A stretch of 64,000 nt of DNA from Polyangium jinanense (GTDB lineage Bacteria > Myxococcota > Polyangia > Polyangiales > Polyangiaceae): the NCBI RefSeq assembly GCF_028435365.1, contig NZ_JAGTJJ010000017.1:127580-191579 (forward strand). Direction: 5' to 3'. The number at the start of each line of letters is the position of its first letter. Within the stretch, counting starts at the first letter, position 1. This document shows positions 732 to 13,855 of this stretch, in pieces. The notes under the pieces are model-generated. The model was given only the letters and a program-made list of their open reading frames with translations, had not been told where the DNA came from and searched no databases. The position numbers were made by a program, and so were the translations under genes.

Positions 732-1208
732 ATGACCCCGAAAGCCCGCAGTGCCTCGATCGACGCTGGCTCCCTGCCCGCGCTCTCGCCCCTCGCCGCG
801 TTCGCCCTCGCGCAGGCCGACGGCACCCGGTCCATCGCGGACATCGCTGCCCTCGCGGCCGCCACCGGAACCGACGGGTGGACGCGTGACGCGGTGTTCC
901 GCGCGCTCGACGAGCTCGCGGATCTCGGCCTCCTCGAGGCGCGCGTGGCCCCTCCGGCTGGTGGTCCTCGGGTTCGCCGCGGCCCGACGGTCGAGAGCGC
1001 CCCGGCCCTCGGTGTTTCGCCGGGCATGCCGCTCTGGGCTTCCGACGACGACGACGGCTCGCGGAAGAACCAAGAGGAGAAGGAAAAGCGCCACGCGGAG
1101 CAGAGCGACAAGAAGAAGTCCGGCAAGGACAAGGACAAGGAACAGGGCGCCCGCGGCGCGGAGCAGAGCGACAAGCGCACGGCCGAGCAGAGCGACAAGG
1201 GTTCCTGA
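732..1208 (+). CDS. Small wHTH/RRE-like protein with three C-terminal AEQSDK repeats
   Basis: A 158-residue protein. ATG 732 is preceded by GGAG with a 6-nt gap. Residues about 15-75 (SPLAAFALAQADGTRSIADI, then a helix ending FRALDELADLGLL) resemble the winged-helix fold of PqqD-like RiPP recognition elements; this is my reading of the pattern, not a search result. A linker with a DDDD run follows, then a highly charged tail with three exact AEQSDK copies at residues 122-127, 143-148 and 151-156, ending two residues before the stop. It ends 13 nt from the 3' end of the convergent oxygenase/ATP-grasp gene, which may modify it. The tail is rich in Glu, Asp, Ser and Lys, the side chains that ATP-grasp ligases join. 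A plain low-complexity protein is the alternative. No family is recognised with certainty. Confidence 0.7.
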   Translation: MTPKARSASIDAGSLPALSPLAAFALAQADGTRSIADIAALAAATGTDGWTRDAVFRALDELADLGLLEARVAPPAGGPRVRRGPTVESAPALGVSPGMPLWASDDDDGSRKNQEEKEKRHAEQSDKKKSGKDKDKEQGARGAEQSDKRTAEQSDKGS

Positions 1209-1221
1209 AGCGCCGTCGCCG

Positions 1222-2703
1222 CTACGTACCGGCCCTTCGCTCCGCTTTTCGCACGAGCCAATCGATCATCGCTCCCCCCACGTCTTGCCCGCCGACGAGC
1301 CGGGCGCGCGCGAAAAAACACGGAAAGTTCACTTCGAGCACGTAATGGCGTCCGCTCGGATGTTCGAGCACGTCCACGCCGCCGAGCTCGACATCGAGGG
1401 CGGCCGTCGCAGCCACGGCGCTCGCCAGGATCTCGGGCGCGGGCGGCGTCCGGTAATCGGCCGGATCATCGGTCGCGTGGGTCCGGAAATCGTCTTCGTC
1501 CTTTTGATTTCGCCAGTACCCCGCGACGCGGTCGCCCACCACGATGCAGCGATAATGCGTCGCATCCGGGATGTAGGCCGAGAGCACGGGCATCCGGCCC
1601 GACGCGAGCGCATGATCCATCGTGGAAAACAGCCCCGCCAGGCTGTCGATGCGCAAGACGCCGATCCCCCCCGATCCGCCGGCAAACTTCATCACGATCG
1701 GCAGGCCGCCGAGATCCTCGACATAGCGCCGCAAAAGCACGCGGTTCGTCGTGTTCCCCCAGATCCACCGCGGCACCGAGATTCCCCGCCGCTCGAGCAC
1801 GGAAACCTCGGGCCCGATATCGCGGAACATGCCGTCCGGCTCCCGATGAAATGTCACCACCCCCGGCCCCGAAAGCGCCTGCTCCACGCGCACCGCCGAG
1901 GACGAGACGGCCGGCCGGAAGAGCAAGGTTCCCGGCGGGAGCGGCTCGGCCGCGGTGAAATCGAAATTCGCCGCCTGCACTTCCTCGTACGAGACCCCGC
2001 GCGACGCGCACGCCTCGCGCAGCACGCGTATCGTCGTCTCGGGCACGCCGTCGTTCACGCAGACGAACCGCCGCGAAGCAGGCGCCTTCCCCGCCGGCCT
2101 CTCGTCCGCCGCGAGTTTCACGCGGGCGGCCTCGACGGGGGCATAAACGAAATACGCGATCGTCGCCTTTTCCCCTTCGCGGAGCGGATTCGACTGATGC
2201 AGCGCGGCCCTGTCGACGCTCCCGTCGGGCCGATGGTTGAACCAGAGCGCGAGCCGTCCCCTTTTCGCGCCGACGGCCACCGGATGCGGCTCGGCGCGCG
2301 GGAAAAACGTCTCGCCGCCGCCTTCCGCGTCCGTGAGATAGACGATCGCGGTCGCCATGAGCCGCGCGCCGCCGATCGTGTATTCGTCGAGGTGCGGCGG
2401 ATGCGCGTCGCCCCGCTCGTACCGGCGAAACCGGAACGTCGGCTCGACGAGCGTGCAGGAAAACCCGAGGACCGCCTCGATCCGCGCCGCGATCGCCGCG
2501 AGCACGGGGTCCTCGCGGACGGGTAGCTCGCTCGACAACCCCGTCTCGTTCGCCTGCCACGCGAGCCCGCGGCGGGTGAGCCCGTCGCGATCGCCGTACG
2601 AGGCGAGCACGTGGCGCACCTCGTCGTCGAAGACAAAACCCTCCTGCACGTAGAGGCGCGGCGCCTCGGAAAGGCGCCGCAGCGGAGACGAGACGGGGTT
2701 CAT
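1222..2703 (-). CDS. Fused prolyl-4-hydroxylase-like 2OG-Fe(II) oxygenase and RimK-type ATP-grasp ligase
   Basis: A 493-residue protein counted from ATG 2703; a TTG 36 nt upstream keeps the frame but is less likely. Residues about 1-195 form a P4Hc-type double-stranded beta-helix. The iron ligands are visible as H104-L-D106 in HPPHLDEY and H169 in ALHQSNP, with K179 as the 2-oxoglutarate contact. Residues about 215-493 form an ATP-grasp domain: a glycine-rich loop in VMKFAGGSGGIGVL, then the metal-binding LEVN in HYVLEVNFPCFF. Family knowledge: RimK-like ATP-grasp enzymes make amide or ester bonds to carboxylates, and P4H-like enzymes hydroxylate residues or free metabolites. The fusion suggests coupled hydroxylation and ligation. 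The convergent neighbour at 732-1208 is a candidate peptide substrate, which is inference. Confidence 0.85.
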   Translation of the reverse strand: MNPVSSPLRRLSEAPRLYVQEGFVFDDEVRHVLASYGDRDGLTRRGLAWQANETGLSSELPVREDPVLAAIAARIEAVLGFSCTLVEPTFRFRRYERGDAHPPHLDEYTIGGARLMATAIVYLTDAEGGGETFFPRAEPHPVAVGAKRGRLALWFNHRPDGSVDRAALHQSNPLREGEKATIAYFVYAPVEAARVKLAADERPAGKAPASRRFVCVNDGVPETTIRVLREACASRGVSYEEVQAANFDFTAAEPLPPGTLLFRPAVSSSAVRVEQALSGPGVVTFHREPDGMFRDIGPEVSVLERRGISVPRWIWGNTTNRVLLRRYVEDLGGLPIVMKFAGGSGGIGVLRIDSLAGLFSTMDHALASGRMPVLSAYIPDATHYRCIVVGDRVAGYWRNQKDEDDFRTHATDDPADYRTPPAPEILASAVAATAALDVELGGVDVLEHPSGRHYVLEVNFPCFFARARLVGGQDVGGAMIDWLVRKAERRAGT

Positions 2704-2755: not shown

Positions 2756-4273
2756 TCACTTGATGGGGAGCGCGGCGAACCGCGTGATCTTGCCGCGGCG
2801 AACCTTGAACGCCGCCACGGTGCCGGGCTTCATCTTGCCGAGCGCGGCTTCGAGCGCCTTGGCGTCGCGCACCGGCGCGCCGTTGACCTCGAGGAGCACG
2901 TCGCCCGGCGAGAGCTCGCTCTCGGCCTCCGTGACCCGGTCGACGCGCACGCCGCCGCCCGCGAGATCCGAGAACTGGAAGCCGAACTTGTTCGCCGTGG
3001 CCGGCGCCTTCGGCCCGCGCGTGGGCTTCGTGTCGACCTCGTCGCCGTTGCCGTCGCCGAGCTGATCGAGTTTCGCGGTTACCTCGAGCGGCTTGCCGGA
3101 GCGGAGGAGCGAGACTTTGATCGTCGTGCCCGGCGCGTGCCGCGCGACCTTGCGGGGCAGGTCTTCGGCGTGGTGGATCGGCGTGCCGTTCACTGCGACC
3201 ACGATGTCGCCGGGCTTGATGCCCGCGCGCGCCGCCGCGCCGCCCGGCTCGAGATCCGAGACGAGCGCGCCCTTCGGCGTGTCCATGCCAAACGCCTTGC
3301 CGAGATCGGCCGTGAGCGGCTGGAAGAGCAGGCCGAGCTTGCCACGCTCGACGCGACCCTTCTCGCGGAGCTGCGGCAGGATGTCCCTCAGCGCGTCGAC
3401 CGGCGTCGCGAAGCCGATGCCGTTCGCGCCGGCGCGGATGGCCGTGTTGATGCCGATCACCTCGCCCTTCCAGTTGAACAGCGGACCGCCGCTGTTGCCC
3501 GGGTTGATGCTCGCGTCGGTCTGGATGAAATCGTCGTACGGGCCGGCGCCGATCGAACGCGCCTTGGCGCTCACGATCCCGAGCGTCACCGTGTGCCCGA
3601 GCCCGAAGGGGTTCCCGACCGCGAGCACGTGCTCGCCGACGCGCAGCGCCTCGCTCGATCCGAGCGCCGCGACCGGAAGGCCGCTCGCGCCGCGAAGCTT
3701 CAAGAGCGCGAGATCGAGCTTCGTATCACGCCCGACGACGTCGGCGGCGAACTCGCGCTCGTCCGCGAGGCGCACCTTCACATCGTCCGCGCCCTCGATC
3801 ACGTGCGCGTTCGTCACGATGAACCCCTCGGGGTCGATGATGAACCCGGTGCCGAGCGCGGTGCGCGCCATCTGTCGCTCCGGGGTGCGCGGCGCGCGTT
3901 CACCTCCGCCGCCTCCGCGCGGGCCGAAGAAAAACTCGAAGGGATCGATGCCGCCGAAGCCCGGTCCTCCGCCGGCGACCTTCTGCGTCGTCGTGATGTT
4001 GACGACCATGGGCGTCACGCGCTGGGCGAGGTCGGCGACGTCGAACGTCGCGGGCACGGGCGCGGGCCCGGCGGGCGCGGGCGCTGCCGTGACGGCCGCG
4101 GCGGCCTCGGCCGAGACTTGCTGGGCAACCTCTTGCGTAGAGGGCGGCGGCGGCGTCGCGTGCGCCTCGTGCCCGCAGCCGGTGGACCCGAGCAATCCCG
4201 TGGCGAGCAAAAGGGCGAGCGCCGAGCGAGACACGAATGAAGACGCGCGCTGGGACGAACGGACGGACATCAT
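2756..4273 (-). CDS. HtrA/DegP-type periplasmic serine protease, lipoprotein
   Basis: A 505-residue protein starting at ATG 4273, with GGGGAG six nt upstream. An N-terminal signal ends in a lipobox GSTGC with the modified Cys at 33. A Pro/Ala linker follows, then a trypsin-like domain with the full triad: H157 in TNAHVIEG, D187 in KLDLALLK and S261 in GNSGGPLF. Two PDZ domains complete the protein (one around KLGLLFQPL, with LEPGGAAARAGIKPGDIVVA; the second ending in KVRRGKITRFAAL). Length and order fit DegP/DegQ. It should degrade or refold misfolded envelope proteins; the lipid anchor would tether it to a membrane. The nearest genes are unrelated to proteolysis, so it is probably transcribed alone. 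Confidence 0.95.
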   Translation of the reverse strand: MMSVRSSQRASSFVSRSALALLLATGLLGSTGCGHEAHATPPPPSTQEVAQQVSAEAAAAVTAAPAPAGPAPVPATFDVADLAQRVTPMVVNITTTQKVAGGGPGFGGIDPFEFFFGPRGGGGGERAPRTPERQMARTALGTGFIIDPEGFIVTNAHVIEGADDVKVRLADEREFAADVVGRDTKLDLALLKLRGASGLPVAALGSSEALRVGEHVLAVGNPFGLGHTVTLGIVSAKARSIGAGPYDDFIQTDASINPGNSGGPLFNWKGEVIGINTAIRAGANGIGFATPVDALRDILPQLREKGRVERGKLGLLFQPLTADLGKAFGMDTPKGALVSDLEPGGAAARAGIKPGDIVVAVNGTPIHHAEDLPRKVARHAPGTTIKVSLLRSGKPLEVTAKLDQLGDGNGDEVDTKPTRGPKAPATANKFGFQFSDLAGGGVRVDRVTEAESELSPGDVLLEVNGAPVRDAKALEAALGKMKPGTVAAFKVRRGKITRFAALPIK

Positions 4274-8306: not shown

Positions 8307-10226
8307 ATGGAATGGACCATCTCCGACACGATCCGCGTGGAAGACCTGGCGGAGGCCCTCGGGACCACGACCGAGGGCGCGCCGCCGCGGAGCCATCCGC
8401 CGGACGCCGAAACGCCAGTGCTGCCGCGCCTGTCGCTTTCGACCGGCGCGATCGAGGGCAAGGCACCCGTGCTCTCCTCGCCGGGCGTCGACCTCACCCT
8501 CGTGCGGCAGCTCGGGCAAGGCGGCATGGGGGCCGTCTACCTCGCGCATCAGCGATCCCTCGATCGCCATGTCGCCGTAAAAATACCGCACGACGACGCG
8601 CCCCGGAGCGCGTCCTTGGCGATCATTCGCGAAGGCCAGGTCGCCGGGGGGCTCGAACACCCGAACATCGTGCCGGTGCACGCGCTCGGGCTCGACGATA
8701 CAGGGCGGCCGATCCTGGTCATCAAGCGGATTGAGGGCGTGTCGTGGAGCGACCTCCTCGCGGATGCGAGCCATCCGTTCTGGGAGCTCGCGAGCTTCGG
8801 GGGCGAATCACGCCTCGTCGCGCACCTCGAGATCCTGATGCAGGTATGCAATGCATTGCATTTCGCCCATACCCGCGGGATCGTCCACCGGGACATGAAG
8901 CCCGACAACGTGATGGTCGGCGAATTCGGCGAGGTGTACCTGCTCGATTGGGGGGTGGCGCGGAAGATCGACACGACGCCGGGCAAGGAGGCGGAGCCGC
9001 TCGTCGGGACCCCTGCGTACATGGCCCCGGAGATGGCTTGCGGAAAGCCGCACGAGGTCGACGCGCGGACGGACGTGTATCTGCTCGGCGCGACGCTCCA
9101 CGAGATCCTCACGGGCAACCCGCCGCACGCGCGGCCGAGCCTTTACGACGCGCTTCTTTCGGCGAGCGCGGGGACGCCGCAGGACTACCCGCCCGAGGCC
9201 CCGGACGAGCTCGTCGCGCTCTGCAATGCCGCAATGTCGCGCGATCGGGACGAGCGGCCCCCGAGCGCCGCGACATTCCGCGAGCGCGTGGCCGATTTTC
9301 TGCATCACCGCTCCTCGCTCGGAATCGCGAATGCGGCGAGCGAGCGGCTCGCGGCCTTGGAGAAGGCCATGGGTAACGGCGGACCTGAGCTCGTCACCAG
9401 CGCGGAAATGCTGGGCGGGCTCAGCGAATGCCGCTTCGGCTTTCTGCAAGCCCTCCGCGAATGGCCCGACAACACGCGCGCCAAGGAGGGGCTCGCGCGG
9501 AGCCTCTCGCTCCTCGTCGAGCGCGAGCTCGCCCTGGAAAACCCTGCGAACGCCCGCGCCCTGCTCGAACGAATCGAAGGAGATCGCTCCGCGCTCGAAA
9601 CGCGCGTCGCCCTGCTGGAAGAAAAAATCGAGGAACGCCGGCGGCTCGAGCGGAGGGCCGCGAAGATGGCCAAGGAGATGGATTCCAGCGTGGGTCGCCG
9701 CGCGCGGACGCTCTTCATCAGCGCCGTGGTCGGAACCGGCGCCATCGCAATGGGCGCCCTCTCGATCCGCGAAGCGAACACGCGCCGCCCCTCGTCCTGG
9801 GCCGACGTCCTCGTCTTCGACGCGGTGATCCTCGCGCTGTTCCTCGCCGGGCTCTTTTTTGGTCGCAGGCGGCTGCTCACGAACCTCTTCAACCGCCGGC
9901 TGCTCTTCACCGTCACGGCCTCGTTCGCGCTGAATGCCCTGCACGACGTGCTCTCCTACGCTCGCGGCGAGCACGTCTGGACCTCGGGCGCGATGGGCCA
10001 GCTCATCATCGGCTCTTGCCTCGTGGTCACCGCGATCAACAGCACGCTCGAGCTCCTCTGGCCCGCGGCGATCCAGCTCGCGGGCGGCTTGCTCTCGTTT
10101 TACGTCCCCTGGGCGACGGGCGCGATCAGCACGATCGGCACGCTCGTCACGGTCGCGCTCGTCCTCCGGGCATCGAAGCCGAGCGGCGCCGCGGAGACGG
10201 CTGACGCGCGGCACGACCGCGTGTAG
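8307..10226 (+). CDS. Membrane-anchored Ser/Thr protein kinase with DWG in place of DFG
   Basis: A 639-residue protein. The eukaryotic-like kinase domain runs from about residue 64 to 340: glycine loop GQGGMGAVYLA, ATP-binding Lys in HVAVKIP (K92), catalytic loop IVHRDMKPDNVM, a magnesium motif LLDWGVA where Phe of DFG is replaced by Trp, and APEM of the activation segment. An alpha-helical segment follows (LEEKIEERRRLERRAAK). Four hydrophobic segments then run from ARTLFISAVVGTGAIA to about residue 620. The topology suggests a cytoplasmic kinase held by a C-terminal four-helix membrane domain. Myxobacteria have many such kinases; its target is unknown. The metallophosphatase gene starts 20 nt downstream, so the two may be co-transcribed. 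Confidence 0.92.
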   Translation: MEWTISDTIRVEDLAEALGTTTEGAPPRSHPPDAETPVLPRLSLSTGAIEGKAPVLSSPGVDLTLVRQLGQGGMGAVYLAHQRSLDRHVAVKIPHDDAPRSASLAIIREGQVAGGLEHPNIVPVHALGLDDTGRPILVIKRIEGVSWSDLLADASHPFWELASFGGESRLVAHLEILMQVCNALHFAHTRGIVHRDMKPDNVMVGEFGEVYLLDWGVARKIDTTPGKEAEPLVGTPAYMAPEMACGKPHEVDARTDVYLLGATLHEILTGNPPHARPSLYDALLSASAGTPQDYPPEAPDELVALCNAAMSRDRDERPPSAATFRERVADFLHHRSSLGIANAASERLAALEKAMGNGGPELVTSAEMLGGLSECRFGFLQALREWPDNTRAKEGLARSLSLLVERELALENPANARALLERIEGDRSALETRVALLEEKIEERRRLERRAAKMAKEMDSSVGRRARTLFISAVVGTGAIAMGALSIREANTRRPSSWADVLVFDAVILALFLAGLFFGRRRLLTNLFNRRLLFTVTASFALNALHDVLSYARGEHVWTSGAMGQLIIGSCLVVTAINSTLELLWPAAIQLAGGLLSFYVPWATGAISTIGTLVTVALVLRASKPSGAAETADARHDRV

Positions 10227-10245
10227 AATGCGCGCGTCTGACCTC

Positions 10246-11073
10246 ATGAAACTCCTCGCCATCAGCGATCTGCACGTCGGATTTCCGGACAATCGAACCG
10301 CCGTCGCGTCCCTCGGCGCGCGGCCCGACGATTGGCTCATCCTCGGTGGGGATCTCGGCGAAACGTTCGAGCACGTACGATTCGTGCTGGATACGCTGGC
10401 GCCGCGGTTCCGGAAGCTCGTGTGGGTGCCGGGAAACCACGAGCTGTACGTCAACCCCCACGAGCCGGGCGAGCCCCGCGGCGCCGCCCGATATGCGCGG
10501 TACATCGAGCTCTGCCGCGAGCGCGGCGTGCTCACGCCGGAGGATCCATATCCCATCTGGGAAGGCGAGGGCGGCCCGCACCTCATCGTCCCCATGTTCC
10601 TGCTCTACGATTACACGTTCCGCCCGGACCACGTGCCCGTGAGCGAAGCCGTCGCCTGGGCCGCGGAGCAAGGCATCGCCGCGGCGGACGAGGTCCTGCT
10701 CGATCCCGCGCCCTTTCCGAGCCGGCCGGCGTGGTGCCACGCGCGCGTCGCCGAGACCGAAGCGCGCCTCCGCACAGCGCCCGCGCTGCCGAAGGTGCTC
10801 ATCAATCATTTCCCGCTGCGCCAGGACCTCGTCTTCCTGCCGCGCGTGCCGCGCTTCTCGCCCTGGTGCGGGACGCGAAAAACCACGGATTGGCACGTCC
10901 GCTTCGATGCGCGCGTCGTGGTGCAGGGCCATTTGCACGTCCGGCGGACGGTGCACGTCGACGGCGTCCGCTTCGAGGAGGTCTCGTTCGGATACCCGCG
11001 CGAACGCCGGAGCGACCGGTCGATCGACGCTTACGTGAAACAGATCCTCCCGACGCCGGAGATCACGCCTTGA
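10246..11073 (+). CDS. Calcineurin-like metallophosphoesterase
   Basis: A 275-residue cytoplasmic protein from ATG 10246 (an in-frame ATG at 10228 is possible). All metal-binding motifs are present in order: SDLHVG, GGDLGE, VPGNHELYV, INHFPL and QGHLHVRR. This is the calcineurin-like fold used for phosphoesters, nucleotides or nucleic acids; the substrate cannot be read from the sequence. The stop overlaps the TTG start of the phosphopantetheinyl transferase by 4 nt, so the two are probably translationally coupled, and the kinase gene lies just upstream. Confidence 0.9.
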   Translation: MKLLAISDLHVGFPDNRTAVASLGARPDDWLILGGDLGETFEHVRFVLDTLAPRFRKLVWVPGNHELYVNPHEPGEPRGAARYARYIELCRERGVLTPEDPYPIWEGEGGPHLIVPMFLLYDYTFRPDHVPVSEAVAWAAEQGIAAADEVLLDPAPFPSRPAWCHARVAETEARLRTAPALPKVLINHFPLRQDLVFLPRVPRFSPWCGTRKTTDWHVRFDARVVVQGHLHVRRTVHVDGVRFEEVSFGYPRERRSDRSIDAYVKQILPTPEITP

Positions 11074-11831
11074 GCCCTCTTTCCTTGCCCTCGGGCGCCG
11101 CGCACCTCTGGTACGTCGATCCCGACGCGATCGACGATTGGTACCTGCTCGCGGCCTACCATTCCGTCATGTCGCCCGACGAGGCCCGGCAGCAAGCTCG
11201 TTTTCGGTTCGCCGAGGGCCGACGCGAATACCTCGTCACGCGCGCGCTCGTCCGCGCCGTGCTCAGCGCGTATGCGCCCGTCGCCCCGCGCGATTGGGTC
11301 TTCGTGCGAAACAGCCACGGCCGCCCGGAGATCGCGGGGCCGAGCGGCGCGCCGAGGGTGCGCTTCAACCTCTCGAACACACGTGGCCTCGTCGCGATCC
11401 TCGTCGCAGAGGACCGCGAAGTCGGCCTCGACGTCGAGGACACCCACCGGCGCGGCGAGACCGTCAGCATCGCCGACCGCTTCTTCTCCCCGTTCGAATC
11501 CGCCTCGCTACGCCGGCTGCCCGCGCATCGCCAGCGGGATCGATTCTTCGATTACTGGACCCTCAAGGAAGCCTACATCAAGGCGCGGGGCATGGGCCTC
11601 GCCATCCCGCTCGATCATTTTTCCTACCACCTCGACGAGGCCGGCCCCATTCGTATCTCCTTCGAGCCCGAGCTCCCGGACGCCCCTTCGCGCTGGCAAT
11701 TCTCGCTCACCTCGCTGGGCGGTCGTCATCGCGTGGCGACGGCGATCGAGCGAAGGCCTGGCGAGGGCCCCGTTGCCGTCGAGATGTTTCGTTGTGTCCC
11801 GTTCGAGGACGTGCCGCGGTCGCGTGGATGA
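11070..11831 (+). CDS. Sfp-type 4'-phosphopantetheinyl transferase
   Basis: A 253-residue protein starting with TTG 11070, which overlaps the upstream stop by 4 nt; GGAG lies 8 nt upstream. It carries the Sfp-family motifs: FNLSNTRGLVAI, the magnesium-binding EVGLDVED and the WTLKEAYIKARGMGL box. Such enzymes transfer phosphopantetheine from CoA to carrier proteins of polyketide, nonribosomal peptide or fatty-acid synthases. Broad-specificity Sfp enzymes are expected in a metabolite-rich myxobacterium. No synthase genes lie in the window, so it probably acts on carrier proteins encoded elsewhere. Confidence 0.95.
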   Translation: MSPLSLPSGAAHLWYVDPDAIDDWYLLAAYHSVMSPDEARQQARFRFAEGRREYLVTRALVRAVLSAYAPVAPRDWVFVRNSHGRPEIAGPSGAPRVRFNLSNTRGLVAILVAEDREVGLDVEDTHRRGETVSIADRFFSPFESASLRRLPAHRQRDRFFDYWTLKEAYIKARGMGLAIPLDHFSYHLDEAGPIRISFEPELPDAPSRWQFSLTSLGGRHRVATAIERRPGEGPVAVEMFRCVPFEDVPRSRG

Positions 11832-11919
11832 GGAGGAACCCCAAGGCCTGACGGTTGTCCCAAGGAAGGCGGCGTCTTTTGCGTTTCACGAAGCACGCCC
11901 CCCATCCAAGGAAGACCCG

Positions 11920-12948
11920 ATGGCCGACGGATCCCGCTTCCCCAGGCTCGCTCCCCCGTTCGCGATCACCGGCGCCGCCGCCGGCTGGCTCTCCGCGGGG
12001 CTGCTCTCGAACCCGCTTCTCGGCGTCACGTACGGCGAGATCAAACCCCTCGCCGCCCTCGGCACCATGCTCATCGCCGCCGTCACCGGCGTCCTCCTGA
12101 AAAAGCTCTGCCTCGGGTGGCGATATTCGTACGAAATCGAAACCCCCAACGCCGAGACCCGCCCGACGTCGGACCGGACCGGGTATCACGTCCTGGTCGT
12201 GCTCCTCGCCGGCGCCGCGGCCGGCGCGATGGTCGCGAGCCTCGACCACGCCAGCGACGGCACGCTCGGCGGCGCCGCGAGCGGGGTCTTCTCCGCGATC
12301 CTCTTCTTGCCCGTTTGCCTGCTCATCCTCTCGTCCGCGCGCCGCGCCCAGCGGGCCCGCCTCGGCTCGATCGTCGCGGGCAGCGATCGCCGCGCCGTGT
12401 GGGGGATCCTCGCGGCGGCCCTCTCCGCGGCCACGCTGCTCGCGGCCCTCGACTGGCCGGCGGCGCACCTGGAGGAGACCGAAAAGCCCATCCCGGCGCT
12501 CTTCATCCTGCTCGCGACAGCCCTCGTGACGCTCGTCGTCCTCGCGGCCGACCTTCGTGCTTTGAAGCGCGCGCAGACGGCGCTCGCGCCGGGGCTAGAG
12601 GCCGAGAACGACGGGCCCGCGCCGCTCGTGGACCTTGCCGTTCCGCGCGTCGATCTCGGCCTCGGCGACGACCTCGCCTCGCGCCTCGCGCGGAGCGCCG
12701 CCGCGTATCGAGGCCGGGATCGCGCGGTCGAGCTCGTCCAGGGCAATCCAGAGCAGGCCCTCGGCGCGCTCCGGCGCGCGGTTCGGCGCGGGGTCACGAG
12801 TCTGGCGCTGATGGGCGTGATCCTGGGCGCGCACGGCCTCGCCCAGTCGTCCTTCGTGGCGAAGCTCTACGCCGAGGCTCGTTGCAACACAGGGTTGCCG
12901 GCGCTCCTCTGCCAGACGTACCAGGCGCAGGCTATCCAGTCGCGGTAG
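11920..12948 (+). CDS. Hypothetical multi-pass membrane protein
   Basis: A 342-residue protein from ATG 11920. Hydrophobic segments occur near residues 10-32, 40-60, 88-106, 112-133, 152-172 and 187-206, after which a soluble stretch of about 90 residues leads to a last hydrophobic segment (VTSLALMGVILGAHGLA). The C-terminus has three Cys residues in CNTGLPALLC. No family is recognised. The 3' end overlaps the convergent alpha/beta hydrolase gene by 17 nt. Confidence 0.75.
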   Translation: MADGSRFPRLAPPFAITGAAAGWLSAGLLSNPLLGVTYGEIKPLAALGTMLIAAVTGVLLKKLCLGWRYSYEIETPNAETRPTSDRTGYHVLVVLLAGAAAGAMVASLDHASDGTLGGAASGVFSAILFLPVCLLILSSARRAQRARLGSIVAGSDRRAVWGILAAALSAATLLAALDWPAAHLEETEKPIPALFILLATALVTLVVLAADLRALKRAQTALAPGLEAENDGPAPLVDLAVPRVDLGLGDDLASRLARSAAAYRGRDRAVELVQGNPEQALGALRRAVRRGVTSLALMGVILGAHGLAQSSFVAKLYAEARCNTGLPALLCQTYQAQAIQSR

Positions 12949-13855
12949 CCGTCGTCGCGCCCTCGCCCAGCCACGAGAGCAAGAGCGCGTTGAAGCGGTC
13001 CGCCTGGACGAGCGTGAGATCGTGCCCCGCATTCGGCAAGAGCTCCGTCTGGATGTGCGGCGCGACGCGCTTCACCCGCGCGATCGCATCCTTCGCCGAA
13101 TAAATCGTCTCGTTTTCCCCCAGGATCAGAAACGTCGGCCGCGGCAGCGCCTGGAGCTCCTCGTCACGTAGCACCGTCGGCTGCGCCGTGGGCTTCCACG
13201 CGAAACATCGCGCGGCCAGGTAGGAGTCCTCGATCACCTCCTCGACGAGCTTCCGGCCCTCCTCGCCCTTCGCCGCCGTGTCCGCGAGCATCCATTGCAT
13301 GAAGTTCCGCGTGAGCCACGGAATGGGCAGGGCGGTCAAAATGGCGCGCGCCATCCATTTCACCACGATGGGCAGCACCGTGTTCGCCGGCGCGACGAGC
13401 ACGAGGCCTCGCACCCGCCGCGGATATCGCAGCCCGTACTGGCTCGCGATCCACCCGCCGTACGAGAGCCCCGCGAGCGCGAACTCCGATCGGATACCGA
13501 GGCCCGTCGCGACCTCGTCGAGCCAGTACGCGTAATCGTACCCCTCCTTCGCGAGCCGCGAATAGACGCTCTGGCCGCAGTCGTGGATCCCGTCGATGGC
13601 GAAGACCTCGAACCGCTCGGCGAGCTTCGCAATGTTCGGCCCCCATTGCAGCGAGCTGCCGGAGATCCCGTGCAAAAGCACGAGCGGCGGGGCGCCCGCG
13701 CGCCCGCTCACCCGGACGAACGTCCGTCCGAGGGACGTTTCGATCGTGCGGCCTTCGCAGGGAACGGGCCAGCGCGCGGCGCGCTCGTCGTAGCGGGCAA
13801 GGAACCGTTCGCGGGCCTCGGCGGAGCGGAACGGGTGATGCGGGGGGAAGGTCAT
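12932..13855 (-). CDS. Alpha/beta-hydrolase fold protein
   Basis: A 307-residue protein. It shows LVLLHGISGSSLQWGP (oxyanion hole region), the nucleophile elbow GLSYGGW (GxSxGG), an acid in FLILGENETIYS and the catalytic His in LLPNAGHDLTL. This is a standard hydrolase of the esterase/peroxidase-like group; the substrate is unknown. ATG 13855 is separated from the stop of the upstream gene (13857-14246) by a single base, indicating an operon. Its 3' end runs 17 nt into the convergent membrane-protein gene. Confidence 0.9.
   Translation of the reverse strand: MTFPPHHPFRSAEARERFLARYDERAARWPVPCEGRTIETSLGRTFVRVSGRAGAPPLVLLHGISGSSLQWGPNIAKLAERFEVFAIDGIHDCGQSVYSRLAKEGYDYAYWLDEVATGLGIRSEFALAGLSYGGWIASQYGLRYPRRVRGLVLVAPANTVLPIVVKWMARAILTALPIPWLTRNFMQWMLADTAAKGEEGRKLVEEVIEDSYLAARCFAWKPTAQPTVLRDEELQALPRPTFLILGENETIYSAKDAIARVKRVAPHIQTELLPNAGHDLTLVQADRFNALLLSWLGEGATTATATG

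Follow-up and report, generated by a model that had tools for sequence, protein, structure and literature searches.

ATP-grasp ligases couple carboxylates to amines by way of an acyl phosphate. When Glu and Lys, or Lys and Asp, are joined in this sense at positions i and i+4, the resulting lactams correspond to the classical synthetic helix staples. Among the closest described natural systems is corallotide of Corallococcus, a graspetide of group 15 that involves CorA (WP_171433377), CorB (WP_171433379), CorC (WP_171433381) and CorD. According to PMC13097080, CorB forms the KxxxD rings of five repeats; the PF13640 oxygenase CorC binds and activates CorB and afterwards hydroxylates the delta carbon of the ring Lys. 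Here we analyze a window of 64,000 nucleotides from Polyangium jinanense (contig NZ_JAGTJJ010000017.1, positions 127,580 to 191,579 of the forward strand). Near its start, a gene for a small protein with a repetitive tail (the partner) faces a gene for a fusion of a 2-oxoglutarate (2OG) Fe(II) oxygenase with a RimK-like ATP-grasp domain (the enzyme). The two probably constitute a graspetide-like protein-stapling system, in which Glu(i)–Lys(i+4) isopeptides would be formed after docking through a domain that resembles the recognition element (RRE) of ribosomally synthesized and post-translationally modified peptides (RiPPs), and would then be hydroxylated.

Enzyme and partner genes occur together in distant bacteria

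A partner rich in the motif E-[Q/E]-x-x-K (ExxxK) was found at 50 of 66 distinct enzyme loci, in several phyla and on either strand. The first 42 loci were called by scanning species genomes with a single enzyme peptide pattern, E[VAC]NFPCY[FY], so that enzymes without the pattern were missed. Partners at these loci were detected with a small-protein model run over open reading frames (ORFs), and the remaining loci were read singly. This yielded a partner at 33 of the 42, adjoining the enzyme in every case except L004, where it lies 3.2 kb away. The nine loci without a partner come from Chloroflexota (L018–L020), candidate phyla (L037, L038, L040), a Verrucomicrobia metagenome-assembled genome (L028) and contig ends (L041, L042). 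Within Myxococcota, 28 of 377 sampled genomes encode the enzyme, and 12 of 18 further loci have a partner within about 1.5 kb on either side; of the other six, L061 is at a contig end, L077 and L078 have the oxygenase only, L076 has a poor ATP-grasp domain, and L073 and L079 showed none. A second Acidobacteriota locus, L049, also has a partner. The enzyme was detected in 6 of 294 Planctomycetota genomes, 3 of 321 genomes from the class of Psychrosphaera and 1 of 247 Acidobacteriota genomes. Four of the five new loci from these scans (L101, L102, L107, L108) have a partner, and the fifth (L103) is a contig end. Second copies (L043–L048, L050–L052, L058, L059, L062–L064, L067, L071, L072, L075, L104–L106, L109 and L110) were dropped before counting. 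The distinct loci are nevertheless not independent, as they include six from Polyangium, five from Nannocystis and four Thalassolituus-like ones. Protein searches, which scored only candidates sharing most words with the query, returned 63 homologues of the enzyme and, for the partner alignment against the protein collection, seven proteins.

The association can also be followed from the N-terminal domain (N-domain) of the partner. With a model made of the first 95 columns of alignment A1 (Polyangium-type proteins plus the distant P0013), 51 ORFs of 60 residues or more matched at E ≤0.01 in the loci then gathered, 36 after removal of copies. All of them, except that of L004, are no more than about 0.5 kb from the enzyme, the stretches of the 42 loci spanning at most 10 kb per side. 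In the 377 Myxococcota genomes, a broader N-domain profile matched 20 genomes at 65–94 bits, all among the 28 enzyme-positive ones, although this result is partly circular, since the profile was built partly from the same genomes. No N-domain match exceeded 36.4 bits in the 349 enzyme-negative genomes.

Thus, the idea that the two genes form a module, put forward in an earlier sequence-only reading of the window, is borne out. That reading also stressed the convergent layout, which holds in the window and is one arrangement among several: among 46 tabulated loci, 28 are convergent, 17 have both genes on the same strand and one is divergent. Same-strand ORFs may abut or overlap, with partner end and enzyme start at 9991/9995 in L024, 5303/5300 in L025, 1501/1504 in L068 and 1498/1501 in L069. 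Since gene orientation is free, the pairing survives rearrangement. The same reading had looked to myxobacteria for co-occurring neighbors; the partner does co-occur there, but the module extends beyond myxobacteria.

We also considered, and rejected, a larger operon that would include a conserved third gene, as BLAST clustering of the neighbors of L001–L042 found no third family shared across lineages; the recurrent neighbors in Nannocystis reflect lineage-wide synteny. The clustering showed no shared third gene that might correspond to the beta-lactamase-like CorD, although no search aimed at PF00144 was made. A mobile origin was likewise set aside, because no plasmid matched positions 700–2760 of the window at blastn sensitivity.

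Some loci depart from the common arrangement. At L018 (Chloroflexota), the ligase relative stands beside a peptide of the Os1348 family of the NHLP clan (positions 9666–9902; 52.8 bits, cut-off 40), and positions 10821–13061 encode a single protein with PqqD-like, daptide-type metalloprotease and cyclic-nucleotide-binding-like parts. L019 and L020 resemble it by eye. An L018-type locus probably represents a further kind of RiPP cluster, acting on another substrate, and these neighbors give the enzyme family a second link to RiPP biology. The candidate-phyla ligases of L037, L038 and L040 form a side branch of the family, with no ExxxK partner seen. One Acidobacteriota genome has two copies of the system (L049 and L015); in one copy the oxygenase lies across the partner's other side, and in the other copy it was not found. 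In Myxococcota genome G093 (L157, 4991–6295, and L156), there is a full partner, and a second contig has the oxygenase alone; a search at E 1e-50 did not find the ligase, which may have fallen into an assembly gap.

Partner tails place Lys four residues after Glu

Residue spacing was analyzed mainly in 24 non-redundant partners chosen by N-domain homology only, with Polyangium excluded. In this set, Lys follows Glu at +4 in 238 instances compared to 46 in shuffled sequences (z 33.8), the other spacings from 1 to 10 giving 24–76 instances (45–47 shuffled), and +4 is the top spacing in 22 of the 24 partners. Chemically related pairs do not follow suit: Asp–Lys at +4 is not raised (20 observed, 23 shuffled), Glu–Arg at +4 is depleted (28 observed, 44 shuffled), and Lys–Asp at +4, the KxxxD arrangement, is seen 30 times (23 shuffled). 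A set of 35 partners gave a similar picture (Glu–Lys +4, 379 observed and 75 shuffled; top spacing in 32 of 35), but it was partly selected by ExxxK score and is more biased than the set of 24; another less biased set consists of partners picked with a model that covered the entire Polyangium protein including the tail. Gln (36%) and Glu (20%) prevail at the +1 position of the 379 motifs, hence the consensus E-[Q/E]-x-x-K.

The same analysis was applied to control sequences and held-out partners. In 50 K/E-rich stretches of a Nannocystis genome, Glu–Lys +4 is at background (50 observed, 47 expected) and the reversed Lys–Glu +4 is raised (78 and 45), although one of the five ORFs scored reached z 5.0 (9 observed, 2.4 expected). 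The helical rod of E. coli TolA has 12 Glu–Lys +4 pairs for 7.2 expected (z 2.1) and 21 Lys–Glu +4 pairs for 7.5. Of the held-out partners, L101 is weak (7 versus 2.7 expected, z 3.1), L102 has 9 units versus 2.2, and the near copies L107 and L108 have three each versus 0.6. In both of these gammaproteobacterial proteins (L107, 1038–1568; L108, 627–1163), three AEQxxK units stand at the end, as in the window protein; they also have an RR-type signal-like stretch near the N-terminus and an Asp run, and no N-domain was seen in them.

The paired residues are also the conserved ones. In five ortholog groups, conservation of Glu is 0.90 within ExxxK (n=53) and 0.41 elsewhere (n=50), that of Lys is 0.85 (n=53) and 0.48 (n=36), and that of all remaining residues is 0.55; these totals leave out a sixth group, whose two nearly identical sequences were uninformative. 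Moreover, the tails have 18 invariant columns when seven partners are aligned, and 10 of these columns make up five Glu–Lys pairs four residues apart. The sequence-only reading had regarded the tail as a multi-site substrate of the ATP-grasp ligase and had pointed to the Glu, Asp, Ser and Lys of its EQSDK repeat. The spacing and conservation data support a substrate role at the level of sequence, and they narrow the second point to Glu(i) and Lys(i+4); the whole word, with its Ser and Asp, is not retained. Middle letters vary among Polyangium-type proteins (EQSDK, EESDK, EMSDK, EMNDK, ETNDK) while E and K stay constant, and L056 illustrates that the middle letters of unit copies can shift in step.

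Organization of the window locus

The ORF of the window partner contains exact AEQSDK copies at residues 122, 143 and 151, and 13 nt separate its stop (1208) from the end of the convergent enzyme coding sequence (1222), all as originally read. The features of both genes are listed in Table 1. That the repeat exceeds chance is indicated by the Glu–Lys spacing test in the relatives. The looser EEKEK unit (residues 115–119) is also kept in 14 relatives, with E115 unchanged throughout and K119 nearly so. A protein from Polyangium sp. 15x6 is 96% identical to the partner, and a small-protein search gave 13 homologues, of which all four with a name are from Polyangium. The ratio of nonsynonymous to synonymous substitution rates (dN/dS) in seven Polyangium-type copies is 0.28 for the N-domain, 0.41 for the linker and 0.51 for the tail, indicating that the partner gene is under purifying selection.

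Table 1. Features of the partner and enzyme genes, in window coordinates
Feature	Position	Strand	Basis
Partner of 158 aa, the predicted substrate: N-domain (PqqD/RRE-like), then ExxxK tail	732..1208	+	
Winged helix-turn-helix (wHTH)/RRE-like N-domain, residues 1–75	732..956	+	
Linker, residues 76–104; position of RR + hydrophobic segment in many relatives	957..1043	+	
Looser unit EEKEK (E115...K119), N-terminal to the three exact copies	1074..1088	+	
Unit 1, EQSDK (E123...K127)	1098..1112	+	
Unit 2, EQSDK (E144...K148)	1161..1175	+	
Unit 3, EQSDK (E152...K156)	1185..1199	+	
2OG-Fe(II) oxygenase/RimK-like ATP-grasp fusion, 493 aa	1222..2703	-	
2OG oxygenase domain, residues 8–195	2119..2682	-	Pfam, alignment, fold search
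ATP-grasp domain, residues 210–487	1243..2076	-	Alignment, fold search, tree

The next gene after that of the enzyme (2756–4264, minus strand) encodes a serine protease that resembles HtrA/DegP and has two PDZ stretches; it may be a chance neighbor or a processing enzyme.

The enzyme belongs to a separate ATP-grasp clade

Both halves of the proposed fusion score above their Pfam cut-offs: PF13640 (2OG-FeII_Oxy_3) at residues 91–187 with 30.8 bits (cut-off 27), and PF08443 (RimK) at residues 302–482 with 40.5 bits (cut-off 21). H104, D106 and H169, noted as intact from the outset, are invariant in an alignment of 27 sequences and K179 is nearly so; we take these four to be the iron and 2OG ligands. 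The ATP-grasp residues K339, D444, E457 and N459 are invariant in the same 27 sequences and identical in an aligned RimK-like paralogue, and alignment and fold search together reveal an ATP-grasp fold with the catalytic Lys, Asp and E-x-N. The catalytic roles assigned to these residues follow in part PMC4431377. The structure model of the enzyme is confident (mean predicted local distance difference test score, pLDDT, 91.7). For the ATP-grasp half, Foldseek ranked RimK (5zct, E 5.5e-18) first, followed by ArgX at 2.7e-16 and by PsnB, a graspetide synthetase, at 1.5e-14 (7drm); the oxygenase half came closest to prolyl 4-hydroxylase (3gze, E 4.1e-13).

By sequence, profile and fold alike, the closest ATP-grasp protein is RimK. 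Nonetheless, the enzyme remains below both RimK cut-offs (TIGR00768, 67.5 of 143.4 bits; PRK10446, 47.2 of 331) and far below that of the curated graspetide synthetase model TIGR04187 (24.3 bits, cut-off 350). In a quick tree of 46 rows, the enzyme family forms one clade (SH-aLRT support 98), RimK-like paralogues a separate one (98) and TIGR04187-like synthetases a third (99); the ten TIGR04187-like sequences included are all below the 350-bit cut-off and the rows called RimK are labelled by similarity only. On these scores and clades, membership in either TIGR04187 or RimK was set aside. With a midpoint root, the enzyme family and the RimK-like paralogues fall together, with the graspetide synthetases outside. 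Eleven of 15 genomes searched contain, besides the enzyme, a second, RimK-like match of 77–110 bits.

The oxygenase is present at 22 of 35 non-redundant loci, either fused or as a neighbor gene (L009, L013, L014, L027, L049), and was not found at the other 13, which makes the ATP-grasp/ExxxK pair the core of the system. As the ExxxK motif is alike with and without the oxygenase, it is presumably the ligase that reads it. In Psychrosphaera L009, oxygenase and ATP-grasp are separate abutting ORFs (9950–10600 and 10607–11452), and the genes are also split in L013, L014 and L027, pointing to fusion or fission within the enzyme family.

N-domain and export-like segment of the partner

In a search of PDB with the N-domain profile, the three best sequences were PqqD entries (5sxy, E 0.0013). 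PqqD is also the commonest Pfam match in the partner family (19 of 31 members at E ≤0.1), and the L013 partner exceeds the Pfam cut-off (28.3 bits, cut-off 23.4). Lasso and heterocyclase RREs are among the best fold matches of the domain. These matches agree with the early suggestion of an RRE-like N-domain. A structural likeness to PqqD, which the same reading proposed to check, is suggested by the family, while Foldseek with the window model gave no significant match (best E 1.2); the window partner itself has no PqqD Pfam match at E up to 1. No wHTH was seen in the partners of L017, L024, L030, L068, L069 and L107, yet the motif is there.

An RR pair followed by a hydrophobic stretch, as in twin-arginine (Tat) signals, passes a hydropathy cut of 1.4 at 25 of 46 loci. 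None of six Polyangium copies passes, and L055, the closest copy to the window protein and measured in its stead, peaks at 0.50. P0013, a metagenomic protein of 156 residues with 33% identity to the window protein, has an RR and hydrophobic segment at the position of the Polyangium linker. Weak PEP-CTERM-like ends occur in some relatives, including both partners of L049 and L015. Since segments of the export and anchor type recur in some lineages, the partner may be a protein of the cell envelope and is less likely to be a diffusible antibiotic.

Proposed mechanism and alternatives

In the mechanism that we propose, the PqqD/RRE-like domain fused to the partner would dock the substrate on the enzyme. 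The ATP-grasp domain would then activate the Glu side-chain carboxylate of each E-[Q/E]-x-x-K unit and join it to the Lys at +4, giving one i,i+4 isopeptide (lactam) ring per unit. Because Glu and Lys stand exactly four residues apart and neither Asp nor Arg substitutes, both are most simply explained as parts of the product. As CorC does in corallotide, the fused 2OG oxygenase may subsequently hydroxylate the ring, with Lys as the likeliest site. In lineages with the RR segment, the finished, folded protein may be exported by the twin-arginine route; the Polyangium copies are without this segment.

Several observations weigh against this mechanism. Sixteen of the 66 loci have no findable ExxxK partner, although homologues without such a neighbor and tails without the repeat, named at the outset as grounds for doubt, are thus a minority. 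Two of the 24 partners have no +4 peak, and in this set Glu–Lys +3 (76 observed, 46 shuffled, z 5.4), Arg–Glu +3 (77 and 45) and Lys–Glu +4 (69 and 47) are mildly raised, which may be what ordinary helices produce. In the five ortholog groups, Arg is conserved at 0.77 overall, and for Lys outside the motif the Oceanospirillales group reaches 0.87 (n=10) and a Clostridia-like group 1.00 (n=2). The N-domain model of the window protein is without the three-strand sheet of a canonical RRE, and its designation as PqqD/RRE-like is drawn from the sequences of relatives. Finally, the ATP-grasp domain is nearer in sequence to RimK than to known graspetide synthetases.

RimK adds free Glu to a C-terminus. 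The RimK affinity, together with the midpoint rooting, would fit a side-chain polyglutamylation or amino-acid tagging activity that adds free amino acids to the Glu or the Lys of each unit, the other residue serving for recognition only. We consider this unlikely, since such tagging would need a Lys at exactly +4 purely for recognition, with Arg not substituting (28 versus 44) and variable middle residues, and the Lys is conserved nearly as well as the Glu. Salt bridges between Glu and Lys at i,i+4 stabilize helices, and the tails are rich in K, E, Q and A, with Lys–Glu +4 mildly raised; one relative even bears the source name colicin import membrane protein. An unmodified charged rod, either a single alpha-helix or a coiled coil, with the enzyme acting elsewhere on the protein, is nonetheless improbable. 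A rod does not account for the depletion of Glu–Arg +4 or the unraised Asp–Lys; TolA and the K/E-rich Nannocystis stretches do not have the pattern, and these controls and the Glu–Arg depletion led us to set the rod aside. Moreover, N-domain proteins were not found above 36.4 bits in the 349 enzyme-negative Myxococcota genomes, and some partners have only three units (L107).

Cross-linking between chains, in which Glu and Lys of different molecules are joined into a covalent network, could draw on the many units per chain, the export-like segments and the weak PEP-CTERM-like ends of some relatives. The strict spacing within a chain is, however, hard to explain with donor and acceptor on different chains, and we regard a network as quite improbable. 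A regulatory pair, that is, a DNA-binding wHTH protein with a low-complexity tail beside an unrelated modifying enzyme, would be in line with the only Pfam match of the window protein, a weak one to MarR_2 (E 0.029). It is very hard to reconcile with PqqD being the commonest Pfam match in the family and the top of the PDB profile search, for which it was set aside, or with partners that keep the motif without a visible wHTH.

Stapling of Glu to Lys within each unit thus accounts best for the residue rule. Beyond the window, we tentatively propose, with slightly less than even confidence, an unnamed and widespread class of mostly exported structural proteins. A dedicated ATP-grasp clade would staple their tails covalently at numerous Glu(i)–Lys(i+4) sites, most substrates would have a recognition domain of their own, and Tat would be used because cross-linked chains must leave the cell folded. 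If this is true, nature makes stapled proteins, ATP-grasp macrocyclization serves long, often exported proteins besides small natural products, and the enzyme family could become a tool for stapling recombinant peptides. Mining based on curated synthetase models and short precursors may overlook such pairs, for which a suitable search rule is this ATP-grasp clade beside an ExxxK-rich protein. A sharp residue rule, seen in several phyla and easily testable, makes the system of high interest.

Comparison with known systems

The Aravind group is said to have predicted peptide modification by ATP-grasp enzymes in 2009 and 2010. We found no description of the present gene pair in the open-licence full-text literature, most subscription papers and supplements being outside this scope, and no mention of it in the accessible parts of PMC8939145, PMC12710340, PMC2922099 and PMC4431377. 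The graspetide groups 34, 35 and 41 of PMC13097080 might overlap this system.

The N-domain shares with PqqD and other RREs the profile and fold matches given above; unlike them, it is fused to the predicted substrate and not to an enzyme, and its sheet is reduced in the window protein. The ATP-grasp half resembles RimK, LysX and ArgX, with RimK as its top match in both sequence and fold; here, however, the domain is below the TIGR00768 cut-off and either joined to an oxygenase or accompanied by an ExxxK protein. With graspetide synthetases (PsnB, MvdC/MvdD, TIGR04187), the enzyme shares the ATP-grasp fold and an adjoining substrate with repeated donor (Glu/Asp) and acceptor (Lys/Ser/Thr) residues, but it forms a separate clade (SH-aLRT 98–99) far below the curated cut-offs. 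Graspetide leaders are usually short peptides, whereas here a folded domain takes their place.

Corallotide, as described in the consulted part of PMC13097080, resembles the system in combining an ATP-grasp ligase with a PF13640 2OG oxygenase in a myxobacterium, and in its large precursor, where an N-terminal domain is combined with repeated units whose acceptor and donor are four residues apart. CorB and CorC were likened to the enzyme by description, their sequences being outside our tree. CorC binds and activates CorB, and a fusion of oxygenase and ligase is what would be expected of such cooperating enzymes. On the other hand, the corallotide motif is KxxxD and the one reported here is reversed, ExxxK; CorB is assigned to TIGR04187, far from the score of our enzyme; corallotide is reported only from Corallococcus and has a separate, beta-lactamase-type CorD; and neither a PqqD-like domain nor an export segment is described in that part of the paper. 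A TIGR04187 scan for a corallotide-like cluster matched 17 of 339 Myxococcota genomes; all of these matches stayed below the cut-off, and the oxygenase type in question was not found within about 1.5 kb on each side of those loci. The system would work like a graspetide system, yet it departs from the known synthetase family in score and clade, and from corallotide in its ExxxK motif.

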